From Marispirochaeta aestuarii (lineage in GTDB: Bacteria; Spirochaetota; Spirochaetia; JC444; Marispirochaetaceae), in assembly GCF_002087085.1 (NCBI RefSeq), contig NZ_MWQY01000019.1, positions 1 to 64,000 on the forward strand: a stretch of 64,000 nucleotides of DNA. The letters run 5' to 3'. Made by a program: the position numbers and the translations under genes. Shown in pieces: positions 9,742 through 19,586 of the stretch; positions within the stretch are counted from its first letter, which is position 1, and every line of letters starts with the position of its first letter. The notes below the pieces were generated by a model that was not told the DNA's origin, ran no database searches, and was given only the letters and a program-made list of their open reading frames with translations.

Positions 9742-10944
9742 TTACATGCCGTCGATAATCTCGTATGTGTCCCTGGCGATCTGCAGCTCTTCGTTGGTGG
9801 GTACAACGCAGATCGCGGTCTTTGAGTAATCCGCGGAGATTACCCCCTGGCGGTTTCCGTTTTCCCGGTTCCTTTCATCATCCAGGATTATCCCGAGACT
9901 CTCGAGACGGTGGCAGATCCGTTCCCGCATCTTTACGGAGTTTTCGCCGATACCCCCGGTAAAGACAAGGATGTCCGTCCGTACCATGTTGGCGGCAAAG
10001 GCGCCTATGTACTTGCGAATGCGATAGGCATAAACATCCAGGGCTTCCCGGCACTGCTTGTTCCCCGAGGCTGCGGCCTCCTCAATATCCCGCATATCAT
10101 TGGATATTCCCGAGAGTCCCAGCATGCCGCTCTCCTTGTTGAGAATGCGGTTAAGGTCCTCCTTGGAGAAGCCCCGCTCCATCAGATAGAATAGAATCTG
10201 CGGATCGATATCTCCCGATCTGGTTCCCATGACCACCCCTTCCAAAGGAGTAAATCCCATGGAGGTGTCCATGGATTTACCGTTGGCGATGGCGGTGATG
10301 GAGGCTCCGTTTCCCAGATGGCAGGAGATGACATTGGTGTTGGAAGGGTGCCGCTTCATCAGTTTTATGGCTTCCCCGGATACATACCGATGGCTTGTTC
10401 CGTGAAAACCGTAGCGGCGTATACGGTATTTATCGTAAAACTCCCTGGGCAGGCCGTAGAGATAGGCCGCAGGAGAAAGAGTCTGATGAAAAGCCGTATC
10501 GAAGACCGCCACCTGAGTGCAGTCCGGAAGCTGATTCATGGCTTCACGGATACCGATAAGGTTGGCGGGATTATGCAGGGGGGCAAGTTCTATGTTCTTT
10601 TCGATGGCGGCGATCACCTTGTCATCGATGGTGACGGAGGTGGAATACTCCTCGCCCCCGTGTACCACCCGGTGTCCCACACCGTGGATCTCCGCCATGG
10701 AGGAGATAAGGCCTGCCTCCCCGTCGATAAGGGCGCTTTTAAGGTGCTCCATTGCCGCTTTATGGTCCGGCATGGGTGCATTGCTGTCGTAAACCTTGCC
10801 GTCGGGACGTTTCTGACAGATATGACCCATATCCTGCCCGATCCGTTCAATCAGCCCTTTCCCGATGCTCTCCCTGTCGGGCATACGGTAAACCTCGTAT
10901 TTTATCGATGAACTGCCGCAGTTTATTACAAGGATTGTGTGCAT
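9742..10944 (-). CDS. ackA: Acetate kinase (first copy)
   Basis: 400 aa, the usual family length. It interconverts acetyl phosphate plus ADP and acetate plus ATP in fermentative energy metabolism. The ASKHA signatures are present: VINCGSSSIKYEV (phosphate 1), [51 protein letters not shown], and FTGGIGENS (adenosine). AAGGAG lies about eight bases upstream of the ATG at 10944. No phosphotransacetylase gene is next to it. A second acetate kinase lies about 1.6 kb away on the other strand. Confidence 0.96.
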   Translation of the reverse strand: MHTILVINCGSSSIKYEVYRMPDRESIGKGLIERIGQDMGHICQKRPDGKVYDSNAPMPDHKAAMEHLKSALIDGEAGLISSMAEIHGVGHRVVHGGEEYSTSVTIDDKVIAAIEKNIELAPLHNPANLIGIREAMNQLPDCTQVAVFDTAFHQTLSPAAYLYGLPREFYDKYRIRRYGFHGTSHRYVSGEAIKLMKRHPSNTNVISCHLGNGASITAIANGKSMDTSMGFTPLEGVVMGTRSGDIDPQILFYLMERGFSKEDLNRILNKESGMLGLSGISNDMRDIEEAAASGNKQCREALDVYAYRIRKYIGAFAANMVRTDILVFTGGIGENSVKMRERICHRLESLGIILDDERNRENGNRQGVISADYSKTAICVVPTNEELQIARDTYEIIDGM

Positions 10945-12517: not shown

Positions 12518-13861
12518 TTGACTATTCTTACCTTGAACTGCGGCTCCTCGTCGGTAAAGTATCAGCTCTACGACTGGGACAATAAAGTCATACTCGCCGC
12601 CGGTATCGTCGAAAGGGTTACCCAGCCCGGATCAGTAATTGAACACCGGAGTACCGGTAAAGAGGAAATCACCCGGGAACACGCATGTCCCACCCACAAG
12701 GAAGCCATCCAGCTCATCCTCGAAACCCTGGTTGATTCCGAGTACGGCGCCCTTTCGTCCATCGATGAGATCAGAGCCGTGGGGCACCGGGTTGTTCACG
12801 GCGGCGAGAAGTTCGCCCGCTCAGTAGTAGTGGACGGGCACGTCCTTGATTCCTTCAAGGCGATTCAGGACCTCGCTCCCCTGCACAACCCGGCAAACAT
12901 CCTGGGGATAACCTCCGCACAGGAGGTAATGCCGAATATTCCCCACTGCGCGATTATGGACACAGCATGGCACCAGACCATGCCCAAAACCTCCTACATG
13001 TACGCCCTTCCCTACAAATGGTACGAGGATCATGCCGTACGGCGCTACGGTTTTCACGGAACCTCCTTTCTCTACTGCGCGAAGCGGGCCGCCGTTCTCC
13101 TGGGAAAGGACCCCTTTGAAACGAACGTCATAATCGCCCACATCGGTAACGGATCCTCCATTAACGCGGTAAAGAACGGCGTCTCCGTGGACACATCCAT
13201 GGGTCTGACTCCCCTGGAGGGACTGATCATGGGCACCCGCTCCGGCGATATCGATCCCGCCATCCCCTTCTTCATGATGAAAAAACTCGGGCTCAGCCCC
13301 GACGAGATGGAGACGATCCTGAACAAGAAGAGCGGCGTTCTGGGAATCACGGAGAAGTATGTTGACCGCCGGGACATCGAGATGGCCGCCGCAGATGGTG
13401 ACAAAAAAGCGCAGCTTTCCATCGATATGGAATCCTACCGCCTCAAGAAGTACGTCGGTGCCTACGCCGCGGCCCTTGGCCGGGTGGACGCCCTGGTCTT
13501 TACCGCCGGCGTTGGCGAACGGGGACCCCAGGTACGGGAGAGGGTCTGCAAGGAGATGGAGCACCTGGGCATCAAGGTCGATATGAACAAGAACACCGCA
13601 TCCATGACCAGGTACGCCGAAACCGAGCTTTCCACCCCGGATTCACCGGTCAAGGTATTCGTAATTCCCACCGACGAAGAGCTGGTCATGACAGAGGACA
13701 CCTATGCCCTTCTGGAGGGGACCTACAAGGACCACACCGAGTACACCTACTACTTCCAGAATCCCAATTACGTCAACAAATCCCGCCAGGAAGCTCTCAA
13801 GAAGGACCTTGCCAAGCGGCCCGGGCTGGACAAGATTCTGGTTTATCCTCCAAAAAAGTAG
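12518..13861 (+). CDS. Acetate kinase (second copy, extended C terminus)
   Basis: 447 aa from a TTG start preceded by GGAGG; no ATG is available near the conserved N terminus [17 protein letters not shown]. All family motifs are kept: [69 protein letters not shown] and FTAGVGERG. It is about 45 residues longer than the first copy. The extra tail ([20 protein letters not shown] and onward to YPPKK) is rich in Tyr, Lys and Asn. The two copies are clearly different paralogues, not a recent tandem duplication. A hairpin terminator follows the stop codon. Confidence 0.93.
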
Positions 13862-13885
13862 AAGAGTCTGCAATTGTCATATTCA

Positions 13886-13913
13886 CCGCCGGTCAAACGC
13901 CGGCGGTTTTTTT
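13886..13913 (+). terminator. Rho-independent terminator after the second acetate kinase gene
   Basis: The stem CCGCCGG / CCGGCGG (13886-13892 and 13900-13906) with a 7-nt loop is followed directly by seven T residues. It lies 25 nt after the acetate kinase stop and separates that gene from the TetR module. Confidence 0.92.
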
Positions 13914-13977: not shown

Positions 13978-14025
13978 TTGACGATCCCATCCTGCTGGTA
14001 TACATTAAATTTAACCATCTGGTTA
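13978..14025 (+). promoter_or_regulatory. tetR promoter with palindromic operator
   Basis: TTGACG (13978-13983) is followed by candidate -10 sequences (TATACA at 13999 or TACATT at 14001). Just downstream, around the expected transcription start, lies the perfect palindrome TAACCATCTGGTTA (14012-14025). Two further copies of the same pattern lie before the transporter gene, so this is probably the operator for autorepression by the TetR protein. Confidence 0.7.
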
Positions 14026-14055
14026 GTTTTCTCTTGAAGTAAAGGAGCAGTAGTA

Positions 14056-14730
14056 GTGGCAAAAACACCGGAGAGAGGTTCTCCTGACGCAACTGCCCGG
14101 GAGAAATCACCCGATTCAAGAAACCGGATACTCACGGCGGCGGAAAAACTTTTTGCAGATAAAGGTTTCAGCGGCGCACGGGTGGATGACATAGCCAGAC
14201 AGGCACGGGTAAACAAGGCTCTGATCTACTACTACTTCAAAAGCAAGGAAGACATCCTGGAAGAGCTTATGGAGACGCTGATCAACGAAGCCATGGAGGT
14301 GGTCAACGGTATCGTGCCCCGGGACTTCTCCCTTGAGTCTCTCTCTTCTCCGGAAGAGCGTGAAAAGATCATGCAGCCCCTCTTCGGCTTTCTCCGCAAG
14401 AGGGCGAACCTCCTGAAAATACTCCTCGCCGAATCCCTGAAAGAGTCTTCCCATAATGAAACGGTATTCCGGCTTATTTCCGCCATTGTGGAGCGTCAGA
14501 ACGAGTTCTTCAGACGGTTCAACATGCCCGCTCCCAACGAGGAAAACAAAGCTCATCAAATTGTCGGAGAGTTTTTTACCGGCTTGCTTCCTCTGGCCGG
14601 CTACTTTGCCATGGAGGAACGCTGGAGCGCCTTTCTTGATATATCCCGGGACCAGCTGTGGGATATTTTCCTGAAATCCTTTATCAGTTCCCATGTCAGC
14701 TACACCATCGAAGGTATAGCAAAGGGCTGA
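14056..14730 (+). CDS. TetR/AcrR-family transcriptional regulator
   Basis: 224 aa from a GTG start with AAAGGAG about eight bases upstream. The HTH is classic for the family: RILTAAEKLFADKGFSGARV then DDIARQARVNKALIYYYFKS (about residues 22-65). The remaining helical part would bind a ligand and dimerise. It is followed 83 nt downstream by the MMPL transporter gene. The palindromes at 14012, 14754 and 14789 probably bind it, so it likely represses itself and the transport operon until a lipid-like or toxic ligand is present. The ligand is unknown. Confidence 0.92.
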   Translation: MAKTPERGSPDATAREKSPDSRNRILTAAEKLFADKGFSGARVDDIARQARVNKALIYYYFKSKEDILEELMETLINEAMEVVNGIVPRDFSLESLSSPEEREKIMQPLFGFLRKRANLLKILLAESLKESSHNETVFRLISAIVERQNEFFRRFNMPAPNEENKAHQIVGEFFTGLLPLAGYFAMEERWSAFLDISRDQLWDIFLKSFISSHVSYTIEGIAKG

Positions 14731-14747
14731 AAGGTTGAAATTTCCCC

Positions 14748-14802
14748 TTGACTTAACTAAACAGTTAGTATAATACTATAAATATAACTAACTATTTGGT
14801 TA
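14748..14802 (+). promoter_or_regulatory. Promoter of the MMPL operon with two TetR-type operators
   Basis: TTGACT (14748-14753) and TATAAT (14769-14774) or TAATAC (14771-14776) form the promoter. The palindrome TAACTAAACAGTTA (14754-14767) fills the spacer. A second copy, TAACTATTTGGTTA (14789-14802), lies near the transcription start and ends next to the ribosome site AAGGA. Both match the site at 14012 (shared pattern TAACYAnnYRGTTA apart from one central position). Repressor bound here would block polymerase directly. Confidence 0.75.
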
Positions 14803-14813
14803 AGGATGTGTTT

Positions 14814-17561
14814 ATGGCCCTTCTGCAAAGACCGGGGGAAATACTGACCCTTCAGATAATCCGGAAAAAATGGTGGATTATCGGTGTTTCTGCGGCGCTT
14901 CTGCTGCTCAGTCTGTTTTTCTCCCAGAGGATCCTTATACGAACCCAGTTAAAGGACCTGCTTCCCGAATCCAACCAGCGGGTCACCAGCTACAACAGAA
15001 TCAGCGAGCTTTTCAGCACCAGCTCGATAATCCTCAGCTTCGAAGGAGACAGCAGAACGGAAATACTGCGGGCTGCCCGGGATGCCAGGGACTATTTGGA
15101 GCATGACCCGGGTATCTCGCCTTTTATAGAGACAATCCAGCTGGAATTGCCTGGTGATTTTATTGAACGCTGGGGACTCTACATGCAGAAGGCCGATGAT
15201 ATTCGCCGCAGCCGGGATATGTTTTCCAGGTTGAATCTGCTCCCCTTTATAGAGGCCCTGAACGATAATCTCGAAGCCAGCTACACCGGAGACTCTGCCG
15301 AAGAGGAGATCCTGACCAATCAGGATGAATGGGAAATGGTCGGGACGATGTCGAACATGGAACGCGCATTACTGCTCCTCCGGGATTACCTGGAAAACCC
15401 CGATACCGGAACCCCGGCGGAAAGGGCCGAAGAACTGGCTGCCATCCTGGCCATAGGCGACACCTATACCTTTGACCCGGAAGGCACAATGCTTCTTATG
15501 ACCCTGGTGCCGTCATTTTCGATATCCGACTACGACAGACTGCTCAGCATGATGCCGGAATTCCGGCGGGTGTTCGGGGAGATTACCAGGCGTCATCCGG
15601 GGGTCCGGATCGGTTATACCGGGGACCTGACCAGAGAGTTCGACGAACAGGCGGCATTGAGCTTCGACCTGCTGGTTCCCAGTCTGATTGCACTGCTTCT
15701 GATCCTTATTCTGTTTGTCTTCTCCTTTCAGCAGATACGGGCGGTGCTCCTTGCCCTTATATCCCTCGTCGTCGGAATTCTTTTCGACGTGGGGATAATC
15801 GGCATTACCCTCAGGGAGTTGAACATCCTGACAACCTCCTTCGCGGTTATTCTGATCGGCCTTGGAATCGATTTTGCCATCCATGTTATCTCAAACTTCA
15901 CCGACTATCGCGGCCGGGGCATGGATGAGGAGGATGCCATGACGGAGACCTTTAAAAAAGCCGGAGGATCCATTCTTATCGGCGGAATTACCACGGCCAT
16001 TGCATTTTTCATGCTGATGTTTTCAGACTCCAGGGCAATCAGCCAGTTTGGTTTTATCGCAGGCTGCGGAATCCTTACATGCCTGGCCTCGACATTGATT
16101 CTGCTTCCGGCGCTGCTGCTTGTGTTCGGTGCAAAACAGAATCAGACAAACCATACGTACATTATCGATTACCGCTTTCTCGGTTCCCTGGGAGGATTCT
16201 GCCGGAAACGCAGAATCCCGGTGCTTGCGGCGTCAATCATAGTTGCAGCGCTCCTTGCCGTCAGTGCCGCCGGAAACAGGGTTGAATACAATATCGAGAA
16301 CCTGACGGTTACCGACTCCCCCTCCTCGATCACCGAAAACCGTATCCGAGAAAAATTCAACCTCTCCCCCCAGGCGAGCATGACGACGGCCGCATCCATC
16401 GAGGAGGCCCGGGATTTGAGTGATACTCTGAAACAGGAGTTTCTGGTGGCCAGAGTAAGTTCGGTTGCGGATTTTATCCCCTCTCCCGGGGAGTCGCAAG
16501 AGCGCCTTAAAGAACTGTCGCTGTTTCGACAGGATCCGCCCGGCTACCGGAAGGAGTACCGCTACGATAACGAAGGGCTGGATAATCTTGTGTATGAGAT
16601 ACAGAGGCTTGAATGGAACATGATCGAGATCGGAGATCTGTCGGTCGCCAATCTCGGAGAAGAGAACATGATTCTGAAGAAACGGAATTCCATGATTCGC
16701 GAGATCTTCGGCGCCGAAGTCGGCCGTCCCGGCAGAGAGGTTTTTCAGAAGCTCATCAATACTCTGGAAGCTGACCGGGACAGAAGCATGCGGCTCCTGG
16801 AAAGACTGGATACCCATTTTGCCCCGGCAATGCTGAAGCTCCTGCAGCCCATGATGCAGACAGTACGGCCCATGGAGATAAGGGATATTCCGGAAAGTTA
16901 CAGCCGTGAATTAATAAGCCGGGACGGGAAACAGTTCCTGATATCCATTCAGCCCACCGAAGCTGTTGCCAGGGAGGCGGAGTTCATGAGCTTCGACCGC
17001 AGGATGGCAGAAATCAATCCCGCCATTACCGGAACCGTACAGATGGCCATAGACTGGACCCGGGAGATGGTTACAGAATCCCGGAGAGCATCAGTCTACG
17101 TTTTTGCCGCCATCCTTCTCCTGCTGCTCCTGACATTCCGAAAGCTCCTTCCCACTCTGATTGCCGCACTTTTTCTGCTGATCTCCCTGGTCATCATGTT
17201 CGGACTCTTCCCCATTCTGGGTATTCGGCTGAACCTGATGAGCGTGCTTGCGCTGCCCATGATTATCGGAATGGGAATAGACTACGCGGTCCATATTATT
17301 CACCGCTACATGCTGGAAGGGGACATCGAAACAACCATGACCTGGTCAGGCAAGGCAGTCCTTCTTTCGGGAGTAACAACCGGGTTCGGATTCGGTTCCC
17401 TGGCACTCTTCGGCAGCATGGCGGCTGTTTCCAGTTTTGGCGAGGCCCTTTTTATCGGGGTCATGGTCTGTCTGGTCCTTACATTAACATTTTTACCCGC
17501 GGTCTCGGGATTTCCTGCTCTTTTAGGCCGCGGCAATCAAAACACAATCGGGAGGCAGTGA
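14814..17561 (+). CDS. MMPL/RND-superfamily envelope transporter (HpnN-like)
   Basis: 915 aa from the ATG at 14814, which has AAGGA seven bases upstream; the more upstream in-frame TTG at 14796 lies inside the operator. The layout is twofold: TM1 (about 20-41), a large periplasmic loop, TM2-6 (about 280-440), TM7 (about 460-480), a second periplasmic loop, and TM8-12 (about 750-905). Each half carries the RND/MMPL motif: GLGIDFAIHVISNF and GMGIDYAVHIIHRY, with the proton-relay Asp. Relatives move lipids or hydrophobic molecules from the inner membrane outward. The two following genes (LolA-like and barrel) fit a trans-envelope lipid pathway. The cargo is unknown. Confidence 0.9.
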   Translation: MALLQRPGEILTLQIIRKKWWIIGVSAALLLLSLFFSQRILIRTQLKDLLPESNQRVTSYNRISELFSTSSIILSFEGDSRTEILRAARDARDYLEHDPGISPFIETIQLELPGDFIERWGLYMQKADDIRRSRDMFSRLNLLPFIEALNDNLEASYTGDSAEEEILTNQDEWEMVGTMSNMERALLLLRDYLENPDTGTPAERAEELAAILAIGDTYTFDPEGTMLLMTLVPSFSISDYDRLLSMMPEFRRVFGEITRRHPGVRIGYTGDLTREFDEQAALSFDLLVPSLIALLLILILFVFSFQQIRAVLLALISLVVGILFDVGIIGITLRELNILTTSFAVILIGLGIDFAIHVISNFTDYRGRGMDEEDAMTETFKKAGGSILIGGITTAIAFFMLMFSDSRAISQFGFIAGCGILTCLASTLILLPALLLVFGAKQNQTNHTYIIDYRFLGSLGGFCRKRRIPVLAASIIVAALLAVSAAGNRVEYNIENLTVTDSPSSITENRIREKFNLSPQASMTTAASIEEARDLSDTLKQEFLVARVSSVADFIPSPGESQERLKELSLFRQDPPGYRKEYRYDNEGLDNLVYEIQRLEWNMIEIGDLSVANLGEENMILKKRNSMIREIFGAEVGRPGREVFQKLINTLEADRDRSMRLLERLDTHFAPAMLKLLQPMMQTVRPMEIRDIPESYSRELISRDGKQFLISIQPTEAVAREAEFMSFDRRMAEINPAITGTVQMAIDWTREMVTESRRASVYVFAAILLLLLLTFRKLLPTLIAALFLLISLVIMFGLFPILGIRLNLMSVLALPMIIGMGIDYAVHIIHRYMLEGDIETTMTWSGKAVLLSGVTTGFGFGSLALFGSMAAVSSFGEALFIGVMVCLVLTLTFLPAVSGFPALLGRGNQNTIGRQ

Positions 17562-17562
17562 A

Positions 17563-18297
17563 ATGAGTAAAATGAAAGCGCTGTTCGCGATGCTGGTATG
17601 TGCATCCGCGGTATGGCCGGAAACAGCTCTGGAGATTATACGCAGGGTAGACGAAAGACAGTATTCGAAAACATCGGAACAGACGATGCTGATGAGGGTA
17701 TACCCGAGCATGGCGAGCGATTCAGGTCTTCGGGAGTTCAGGATCTCCAGTGTCAGCAGGGGAAATGACGAGACCTTCATGGTGTTCGAGGAACCCCGGA
17801 CCATCAAGGGAATGAAAATCCTCTCCAGGGGTGACGATCGCTGGGTACATTTTCCATCCACCGGACGGGTACGCAAGATAGTCGGAGAATCGAAAAAACA
17901 GTCCGTACAGGGAGTAGGCGGCGACTTTTCCTATGAGGATCTGGGGGGCGGAACCCTGGAAGAGGACTACCGTACACGCCTGGTGGATGAGTCGGGATCA
18001 ATGTACATAATAGAAGGCATCCCTGTTCAGGACGATTCCGCCTATACCCGGGTTGTGTTCGAGATCGAGAAAGGGAGCTACAGGATACTGAAGATGGAAT
18101 TTCACACGGAAAAAGAAGGTCACCTTAAGGACCTGTTTTTCAGGGACTATACAGTCATGGGGGGCAGGGAAATCGCCGGCAGCATGGAGATGATCAACCT
18201 CGAGAGGGAACGCAGGACGAGGGTCCTGATCCTTGAAGCACGTTTCGACAGAGCTGTTGATGAAAAGCTTTTCAATCCCACCCGTTTCTACCGCTGA
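17563..18297 (+). CDS. LolA-like periplasmic lipoprotein-sorting protein
   Basis: 244 aa. The ATG follows the transporter stop by one base. A signal peptide (MSKMKALFAMLVCASAVWPET) precedes a LolA/LolB-type open beta-barrel of the kind annotated as outer membrane lipoprotein-sorting protein: EIIRRVDERQYSKTSEQTML, VFEEPRTIKGMKILSRGDDR, WVHFPSTGRVRKI, DFSYEDLGG and LFNPTRFYR. Such proteins bind hydrophobic ligands in the periplasm and often sit beside MMPL transporters. It would hand cargo between the inner-membrane pump and the outer membrane. Confidence 0.88.
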   Translation: MSKMKALFAMLVCASAVWPETALEIIRRVDERQYSKTSEQTMLMRVYPSMASDSGLREFRISSVSRGNDETFMVFEEPRTIKGMKILSRGDDRWVHFPSTGRVRKIVGESKKQSVQGVGGDFSYEDLGGGTLEEDYRTRLVDESGSMYIIEGIPVQDDSAYTRVVFEIEKGSYRILKMEFHTEKEGHLKDLFFRDYTVMGGREIAGSMEMINLERERRTRVLILEARFDRAVDEKLFNPTRFYR

Positions 18298-18311: not shown

Positions 18312-19586
18312 ATGAGATGCTGCAGAAAGACCTGCGGACTCCTGTGTGTGCTCCTGATTGCCCTCGCCTTTTCGGGCTGGGGGGATCCCTCTTCCCCCGA
18401 GATCTACGGTTACCTGGAAAGCGGAACAGGCCTGACCAGTTATACCGACGACGATTCCGCCGACACGTGGAAGCCGGGGGCCTATACCAGGCTCCGTTTA
18501 AAAGGAGACTGGGAACCGGAGGAGAGACTGCGCTTCCATCTTGAGACGGAGTGGACAACGCTTCATGGAACGGATAGTCCGGATTTCAGCGCCGGACGTC
18601 TTGGCCTTGACAGCCTCAGCGGCTGGGAAGCCTCGGATACCGGGGAGCTGCAGGTCGAGCATGCCTGGGGACTCCTTGACCTGGGGAACTTTGACCTCCA
18701 GGCTGGAAAGATTCCCCTGGCCTGGGGAACAGCCTATGTGTTTAATCCCAGCGCACGGGTAAATCCTGCGGATTCCCTGAATCCCGGGGGGGACGAAGAA
18801 ACTCCGGGTATAACGGGGATCAGCTCTTCCATCTACCTGAAGAATGGAGTTACACTTTCGACATACCTGGCGGCGGAGGACCGGGGAAGAAAGGCTGACC
18901 CGGATATGATTGCGCATAATGCCGCAAATATCCCCTGGGGAACACGGATCAGAGGTTTTGCCGGTCCCTTCGACCTTTCTCTGGGAATCCTTCGGGAGAT
19001 TCTGTATGATACCCGGACCTCAGGCTACGAACGCCCCCTCTGGCTCAGCTCCGACGGTGTCGGCACTATCGCCGGAATAAATCTCTACTGGGAAGCAGCC
19101 CTCTGCATCAGCGATCCTTCGGGGGATCCTGCTGATGGTTCCTGGGATTTTAAGGATAATCTGGAATTTGCGGCGGGTTTCCATGCCCTGCCGTCCGTGC
19201 TGCAGGGAGTGGAAGTCCGGGGAGAGTATTTTTTCCAGGGCACAGGCAGCAGCCGCGAAAGCGGGTATGAGGTGCTGCCGGTACTGGAGGGAACCAGGAA
19301 AGTCATGGGGAGGCATTACCTCTTCGGCTACCTGGAAAAACGCTTTTTTGACTATCATCTTGTATCCTGCGGTTCAGTACTGAACACAGGGGACCTCTCA
19401 GGGGCGGTTTTTTCCGAATACAGCTGGGAGCTTACGGCAAACAGCAGATTCTCCCTGGGATCGATTATGTATTACGGCAGCGGGGAGTTTCAGGGGCTTA
19501 TTGACCTGTCAATTCTCGGGACCGGAACAGGTTCCGTGGATATGGCAGGAAACCGGATATACGCTGAGCTCCGGATAAGCTTCTGA
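18312..19586 (+). CDS. Predicted outer-membrane beta-barrel protein of the MMPL operon (DUF1302-like)
   Basis: 424 aa with a signal peptide (residues 1-23; CCRKTCGLLCVLLIALAFSG). The rest has alternating beta strands and ends in RISF, with a terminal Phe typical of barrels inserted by BamA. LEVEHAWGLLDLG-type strand patterns and IPLAWGTAYVFNPSARVNP resemble DUF1302-like and porin-like proteins found beside MMPL and LolA/DUF1329-like genes in other diderms. It starts 14 nt after the LolA-like gene, so it is the third member of the operon. It is likely the outer-membrane exit or docking component. The family assignment is moderate. Confidence 0.72.
   Translation: MRCCRKTCGLLCVLLIALAFSGWGDPSSPEIYGYLESGTGLTSYTDDDSADTWKPGAYTRLRLKGDWEPEERLRFHLETEWTTLHGTDSPDFSAGRLGLDSLSGWEASDTGELQVEHAWGLLDLGNFDLQAGKIPLAWGTAYVFNPSARVNPADSLNPGGDEETPGITGISSSIYLKNGVTLSTYLAAEDRGRKADPDMIAHNAANIPWGTRIRGFAGPFDLSLGILREILYDTRTSGYERPLWLSSDGVGTIAGINLYWEAALCISDPSGDPADGSWDFKDNLEFAAGFHALPSVLQGVEVRGEYFFQGTGSSRESGYEVLPVLEGTRKVMGRHYLFGYLEKRFFDYHLVSCGSVLNTGDLSGAVFSEYSWELTANSRFSLGSIMYYGSGEFQGLIDLSILGTGTGSVDMAGNRIYAELRISF

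Follow-up and report, generated by a model that had tools for sequence, protein, structure and literature searches.

A TetR-family regulator and its candidate operators at an MMPL transporter operon of Marispirochaeta aestuarii

Three copies of an inverted repeat (O1, O2 and O3) in the Marispirochaeta aestuarii genome are very probably operators of the TetR-family protein encoded beside them, which would repress its own gene and an mmpL-lolA-like-OMP operon until relieved by a ligand. This reading builds on what is seen in the compared sequences: the sites and their positions, their conservation, their association with a particular recognition helix, and the multiple operators at MMPL genes. 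The window that we analysed is a stretch of 64,000 nucleotides (contig NZ_MWQY01000019.1, C19 in our numbering), in which the locus comprises the following features.

13885..13907, + strand: predicted intrinsic terminator between an acetate-kinase gene and tetR
13978..14006, + strand: predicted tetR promoter, TTGACG-17-TACATT, placed by consensus match alone
14012..14025, + strand: O1, TAACCATCTGGTTA, over the predicted tetR transcription start; extended form TTAACCATCTGGTTAGTTT at 14011-14029
14056..14730, + strand: tetR, TetR-family regulator, GTG start, 224 aa, recognition helix VNKALIYYYFKSK
14748..14777, + strand: predicted MMPL promoter, placed by consensus match, with CTTGACT kept in a same-genus relative
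14754..14767, + strand: O2, TAACTAAACAGTTA, within the -35/-10 spacer of the predicted MMPL promoter
14789..14802, - strand: O3, in the 5' leader, immediately 5' of the ribosome-binding site
14814..17561, + strand: MMPL/RND (HAE3, HpnN/BstA-like) transporter gene, ATG start after AAGGA
17563..18297, + strand: gene for a LolA-like outer-membrane lipoprotein-sorting protein (PF17131, 1.4e-40), operon gene 2
18312..19586, + strand: probable outer-membrane protein gene, so named from position and sequence, operon gene 3

The tetR product matches the Pfam TetR_N domain (PF00440, 4.3e-18, 65.3 bits against a cut-off of 24), and its AlphaFold2 model (pLDDT 89.5) has the predicted all-helical TetR fold with a C-terminal ligand domain. 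The solved chains nearest to the model are DesT, FadR-like proteins and EthR (Z 13-16), and the recognition helix was not found in the five TetR structures aligned. Near-palindromic operators in the own and the neighbouring promoter, which characterize the TetR/AcrR family, are present as three sites and kept in relatives. The protein is predicted to be a TetR/AcrR family repressor that would bind DNA and repress until relieved by a ligand.

The transporter belongs to the MMPL family (PF03176, 1.1e-40, 140.1 bits against a cut-off of 20.5). It also matches the models of the HAE3 RND proteins HpnN (TIGR03480, 1.6e-94) and BstA, but its scores fall below both cut-offs (317.5 bits against 751.85 and 206.8 against 1400, respectively) and, in a further difference, a LolA-like gene follows it; because of these scores we regard it as an MMPL/HAE3 relative and nothing narrower. 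The LolA-like gene keeps its place in the gene order of related loci. The product of the third gene has no Pfam match and gave weak tblastn matches in related loci. Upstream, the terminator at 13885-13907 is predicted to end the acetate-kinase transcript. Two genes of the acetate-kinase type are near neighbours on opposite strands (9742-10944, -; 12518-13861, +). In the second, the Pfam domain match covers residues 3-392 of 447, and about 55 residues extend past it.

The motif copies that the preliminary description had placed at 14012, 14754 and 14789 are all present there, and O1, O2 and O3 match TAACYANNYRGTTA with 0 mismatches and are intergenic. O3, read on the - strand as TAACCAAATAGTTAGTTA (14785-14802), also matches an 18-bp consensus with 0 mismatches. 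Searching the genome by pattern (4.21 Mb, 78 contigs), we found exact TAACYANNYRGTTA at three places, which are O1, O2 and O3 themselves. The same search yielded no further exact site for the wider regulon that had been envisaged, and the regulon of the window TetR appears to be local. The remaining places with one mismatch in the 14-bp form lie inside open reading frames, except for three intergenic ones. One of the places scored as in-frame, C16:90709, is really just 5' of another TetR gene, the frame being a spurious antisense one. With the 18-bp form, the sites of the tetR-mmpL locus took the top ranks (0 and 1 mismatch), and four further places had 2 mismatches. A relaxed pattern was not commoner genome-wide than its reversed control. 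No exact match occurred on either strand in 2 Mb of sequence from a Markov model trained on the window, and about 0.0003 would be expected by chance on one strand of the 277 intergenic bases. Nevertheless, the information content of the pattern leads us to expect a handful of matches per genome even at even base composition, so that genome-wide rarity alone is weak evidence. The striking feature is that all three sites are clustered in two short intergenic gaps. Moreover, TAACYANNYRGTTA was derived from the three sites themselves, and it is therefore the comparison with relatives that provides an independent test.

The placement described earlier, with O1 at the tetR promoter, O2 filling the MMPL spacer and O3 near the MMPL start, holds on the predicted promoters. 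The predicted -35 of the MMPL promoter (TTGACT, 14748-14753) is directly followed by O2, and the -10 may be either TATAAT (14769-14774, 15-bp spacer) or AATACT (14772-14777, 18-bp spacer). O3 would lie some 8-21 bp downstream of the inferred start. Since O1 begins 6 bp after the inferred tetR -10 (TACATT, 14001-14006), it covers the predicted tetR start.

A second genome of the same genus, whose TetR shows 76% identity across the matched region, retains both the tetR-mmpL pair and the full set of three operators. The operator at tetR, TAACCAATCAGTTA, is the counterpart of O1; those at mmpL are TGACCAAACGGTTA, the counterpart of O2, and TAACCGTTCAGTTA. The alignment retains the CTTGACT box and has the TAAC/GTTA arms nearly intact, the only altered arm base being in the first mmpL site; most changes fall in the inner six bases, within or close to YRnnYR. 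The tandem mmpL operators are spaced by 35 bp in the window and by 36 bp in the relative. The shared three-site layout lends support, at the level of sequence, to the reading of the repeats as TetR operators. Candidatus Marispirochaeta associata (L123) has three operators before its MMPL gene, spaced by exactly 27 and 27 bp.

In other spirochaete lineages, TetRs at 30-42% identity carry the operator element over their own promoter, and a second element usually precedes the neighbouring gene. To reach further, bacterial and archaeal genomes were scanned with the helix peptide as seed, which gave 80 loci from many phyla; a profile search across the phylum had matches in 23 genomes. Among TetRs with the helix VNKAL(I/L)YYYF, TAACYRnnYRGTTA with at most one mismatch is present in 78 of 98 tetR promoters (150 bp), against 5 of 1,110 random 300-bp windows from the same loci; about 20% of the promoters have no site within 150 bp. 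Exact TAACN6GTTA was found within 260 bp upstream of 70 of the 104 family TetRs and of 1 of 20 other TetRs, and in 3 of 1,200 random windows. When 51 TetRs were chosen regardless of helix peptide, the exact motif lay upstream of 14 of the 20 with an xNK helix but of 1 of the 31 others (Fisher p = 4e-7, kinship ignored); such p-values overstate significance, because most loci came from a helix-seeded search and are not phylogenetically independent. The single exception among the 31 (L040) has a helix that reads VNKALVHYYF and was missed by the regular expression. Helices of the IPKSLIYYHF type are without the motif, and it is mostly absent from TetRs with other recognition helices. Thus, the motif accompanies this TetR class in the same-genus relative, in other spirochaete families and in other phyla, which points to the adjacent TetR as the binder.

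Several individual loci are of note. A TetR with the helix INKATVYYHF (L139) has related but shifted sites, TAAACGGTTGGTTA and CAACCAGTTGGTTA, in front of tetR and likewise before the next gene, which suggests a variant operator paired with a variant helix. Four TetRs with the helix VNSALLYYYF (L145, L146, L148 and L151) have AT-rich TTAATTAATTAGTTAATTAA-like elements at the same place upstream of tetR, possibly another helix-operator variant. The TetR-operator pair of the main family is found in an archaeal contig, of Methanosarcina spelaei (L072); at 4.3 kb the contig is short, so that it may be contamination. Finally, the M. aestuarii genome itself encodes a second TetR (L022, G000:C16, 1534-2184) with the helix VNKALLHYYFRSK, and a long inverted repeat, TTGGTTTAACCATAAGGTTAAACCAA, lies just upstream (1490-1560); the next gene is outer-membrane-factor-like. 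The operator of this paralog is of a related yet distinct type, and there might be cross-talk between the two systems.

The relatives also define the shape of the operator more closely. The consensus from 64 tetR-promoter sites is TTAACYRnnYRGTTAGTTA; the sites had been selected for their TAAC and GTTA arms, but not for the remaining positions. In 117 sites the inner bases obey YR..YR and do not clearly covary as base pairs, and on one side conservation runs on by GTTA. The core of the 14-bp palindrome originally described is not strictly palindromic, its inner pyrimidine-purine steps accounting for the central mismatch that had been allowed. The operator is better written TTAACYRnnYRGTTAGTTA, of about 18-20 bp, as judged from the aligned sites. 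With the extra GTTA there may be two dyads that overlap at an offset of 4 bp, and hence the operator could possibly receive two dimers.

A homologue of the window transporter is encoded near tetR in 23 of 104 loci (a few loci being counted twice), mostly in spirochaetes but also in SAR324. Usually the MMPL gene is directly next to tetR, and in many cases a LolA-like gene comes after it; in the Chitinispirillaceae, WOR-3 and Aminicenantes loci the MMPL gene is farther along. Elsewhere the next gene codes for a hydrolase, a ferredoxin-type protein, a nitroreductase, an HlyD-type pump, a methyltransferase or a radical-SAM protein. In many loci the gene downstream of tetR has its own operator. At least two operators precede 12 of 16 MMPL targets (usually two or three), against 3 of 36 other targets (usually one), and the tetR promoters of the loci scored for operator number never have more than one. 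Multiple operators at MMPL genes and a single one at tetR predict that the transporter is controlled more tightly than the repressor.

The sign of the regulation is not proven by position alone, and the TetR family has activating members, such as FasR, which is also among the weak profile matches of the window TetR. That the protein binds O1-O3 yet activates mmpL, or acts both ways, is nevertheless very improbable: at both genes the sites extend over the -10/start region, and the spacer is taken up by one, as is typical of steric repression, and in most loci of the family an operator lies close 5' of tetR. It is a little less probable still that the sites are chiefly bound by a different regulator, such as the C16 paralog (helix VNKALLHYYF). 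Cross-binding by this paralog is possible because its upstream palindrome, TTGGTTTAACCATAAGGTTAAACCAA, contains TAACCATAAGGTTA, but the flanks of that palindrome are TTTAACC/GGTTAAA, not GTTAGTTA, and across genomes the sites accompany an adjacent TetR with the helix VNKAL(I/L)YYYF.

The repeats could also be thought of as RNA hairpins, terminators or chance AT-rich palindromes, as O1 and O3 are imperfect inverted repeats that probably lie in, or at, transcribed leaders. We give this almost no credence. O2 sits in the promoter spacer and would be untranscribed from the MMPL promoter, and conservation far exceeds that of random windows. A hairpin was rejected because the inner positions are without clear pair covariation.

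In the repressor model that we favor, a TetR homodimer, or possibly two dimers on overlapping dyads, would bind O1 at the tetR start and damp its own synthesis. At the mmpL-lolA-like-OMP operon, TetR bound to O2 in the spacer and to O3 just past the start would block polymerase, with a stronger effect than at tetR. The protein would then be freed from DNA by a small molecule bound in its C-terminal pocket, plausibly a lipid, an acyl-CoA or another hydrophobic substrate of the transporter. Here we infer repression from the position of the sites, and binding, dimer number and ligand are likewise deduced. The DesT/FadR-like neighbours of the structural model hint at a lipid ligand; this is a hint and not evidence. 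Fold ranking does not fix the ligand.

Systems of this type are well known, and the circuit is an ordinary TetR circuit. For the TetR MAB_4384 of Mycobacterium abscessus, a published model has the protein repressing both its own gene and mmpS5/mmpL5 (PMC5895659). There too, a TetR repressor adjoins an MmpL-type RND transporter and uses a palindromic operator for itself and the pump; however, the MAB_4384 genes are divergent and have a single 27-bp operator in common, to which two dimers bind, whereas those in the window are in tandem, and tetR has an operator of its own while mmpL has two. RefZ of Bacillus subtilis brings about repression when its operator is positioned in the -35/-10 spacer (PMC6657595), the place that O2 occupies, and it has a TetR fold (PDB 6mj1), as the window TetR does. 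RefZ functions in septum placement, whereas the window TetR is encoded next to a transporter. The NCBIfam model for RefZ, NF037937, matches all 34 family members scanned and is the best NCBIfam model for the window TetR; equivalence to RefZ was rejected, at 62.8 bits against a cut-off of 180 and with a match mainly in the N-terminal half. Equivalence to the Bacillus-type FadR was rejected likewise (45.4 bits against 200, NF053878), and FasR and other named TetR groups fell below their model cut-offs. FadR, DesT and FasR are TetR regulators of hydrophobic ligands, responsive to acyl-CoA, and are among the nearest solved structures, but their identity to the window TetR is roughly 10-22%. QacR and other two-dimer TetR repressors are comparable in that the extended operator, with its overlapping half-sites, might accommodate two dimers. 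The operator sequence and the target of QacR differ from those of the window system.

The operator strings that we tried were not found in a TetR context in the open-access papers searched, and no paper on a spirochaete TetR operator was found in the open-access literature. The helix-operator family is broad and apparently undescribed in open-access papers. We lean slightly towards viewing it as an undescribed TetR subfamily in which the helix VNKAL[I/L]YYYF and the operator TTAACYRnnYRGTTAGTTA are near-constant, the regulated gene is exchanged, and operator number is set by the type of target. On the same narrow balance, its range would cover Spirochaetota, Bacillota, Fibrobacterota, Aminicenantes, SAR324, others and one Methanosarcina contig; the exchanged targets would include, again with only a little more for than against, MMPL transporters, alpha/beta hydrolases, ferredoxin-type and nitroreductase proteins, HlyD pumps and methyltransferases.

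What began as a visual guess has become a testable repressor-operator pair. The recognition helix alone would suffice to predict the operators of many unannotated TetRs in uncultured and anaerobic lineages, and a helix-operator pairing that stays constant across phyla while the targets change would be useful for regulon prediction and for the choice of orthogonal parts. For the spirochaetes, the pair may offer a handle on the signal to which the MMPL/LolA-like transport operon responds.
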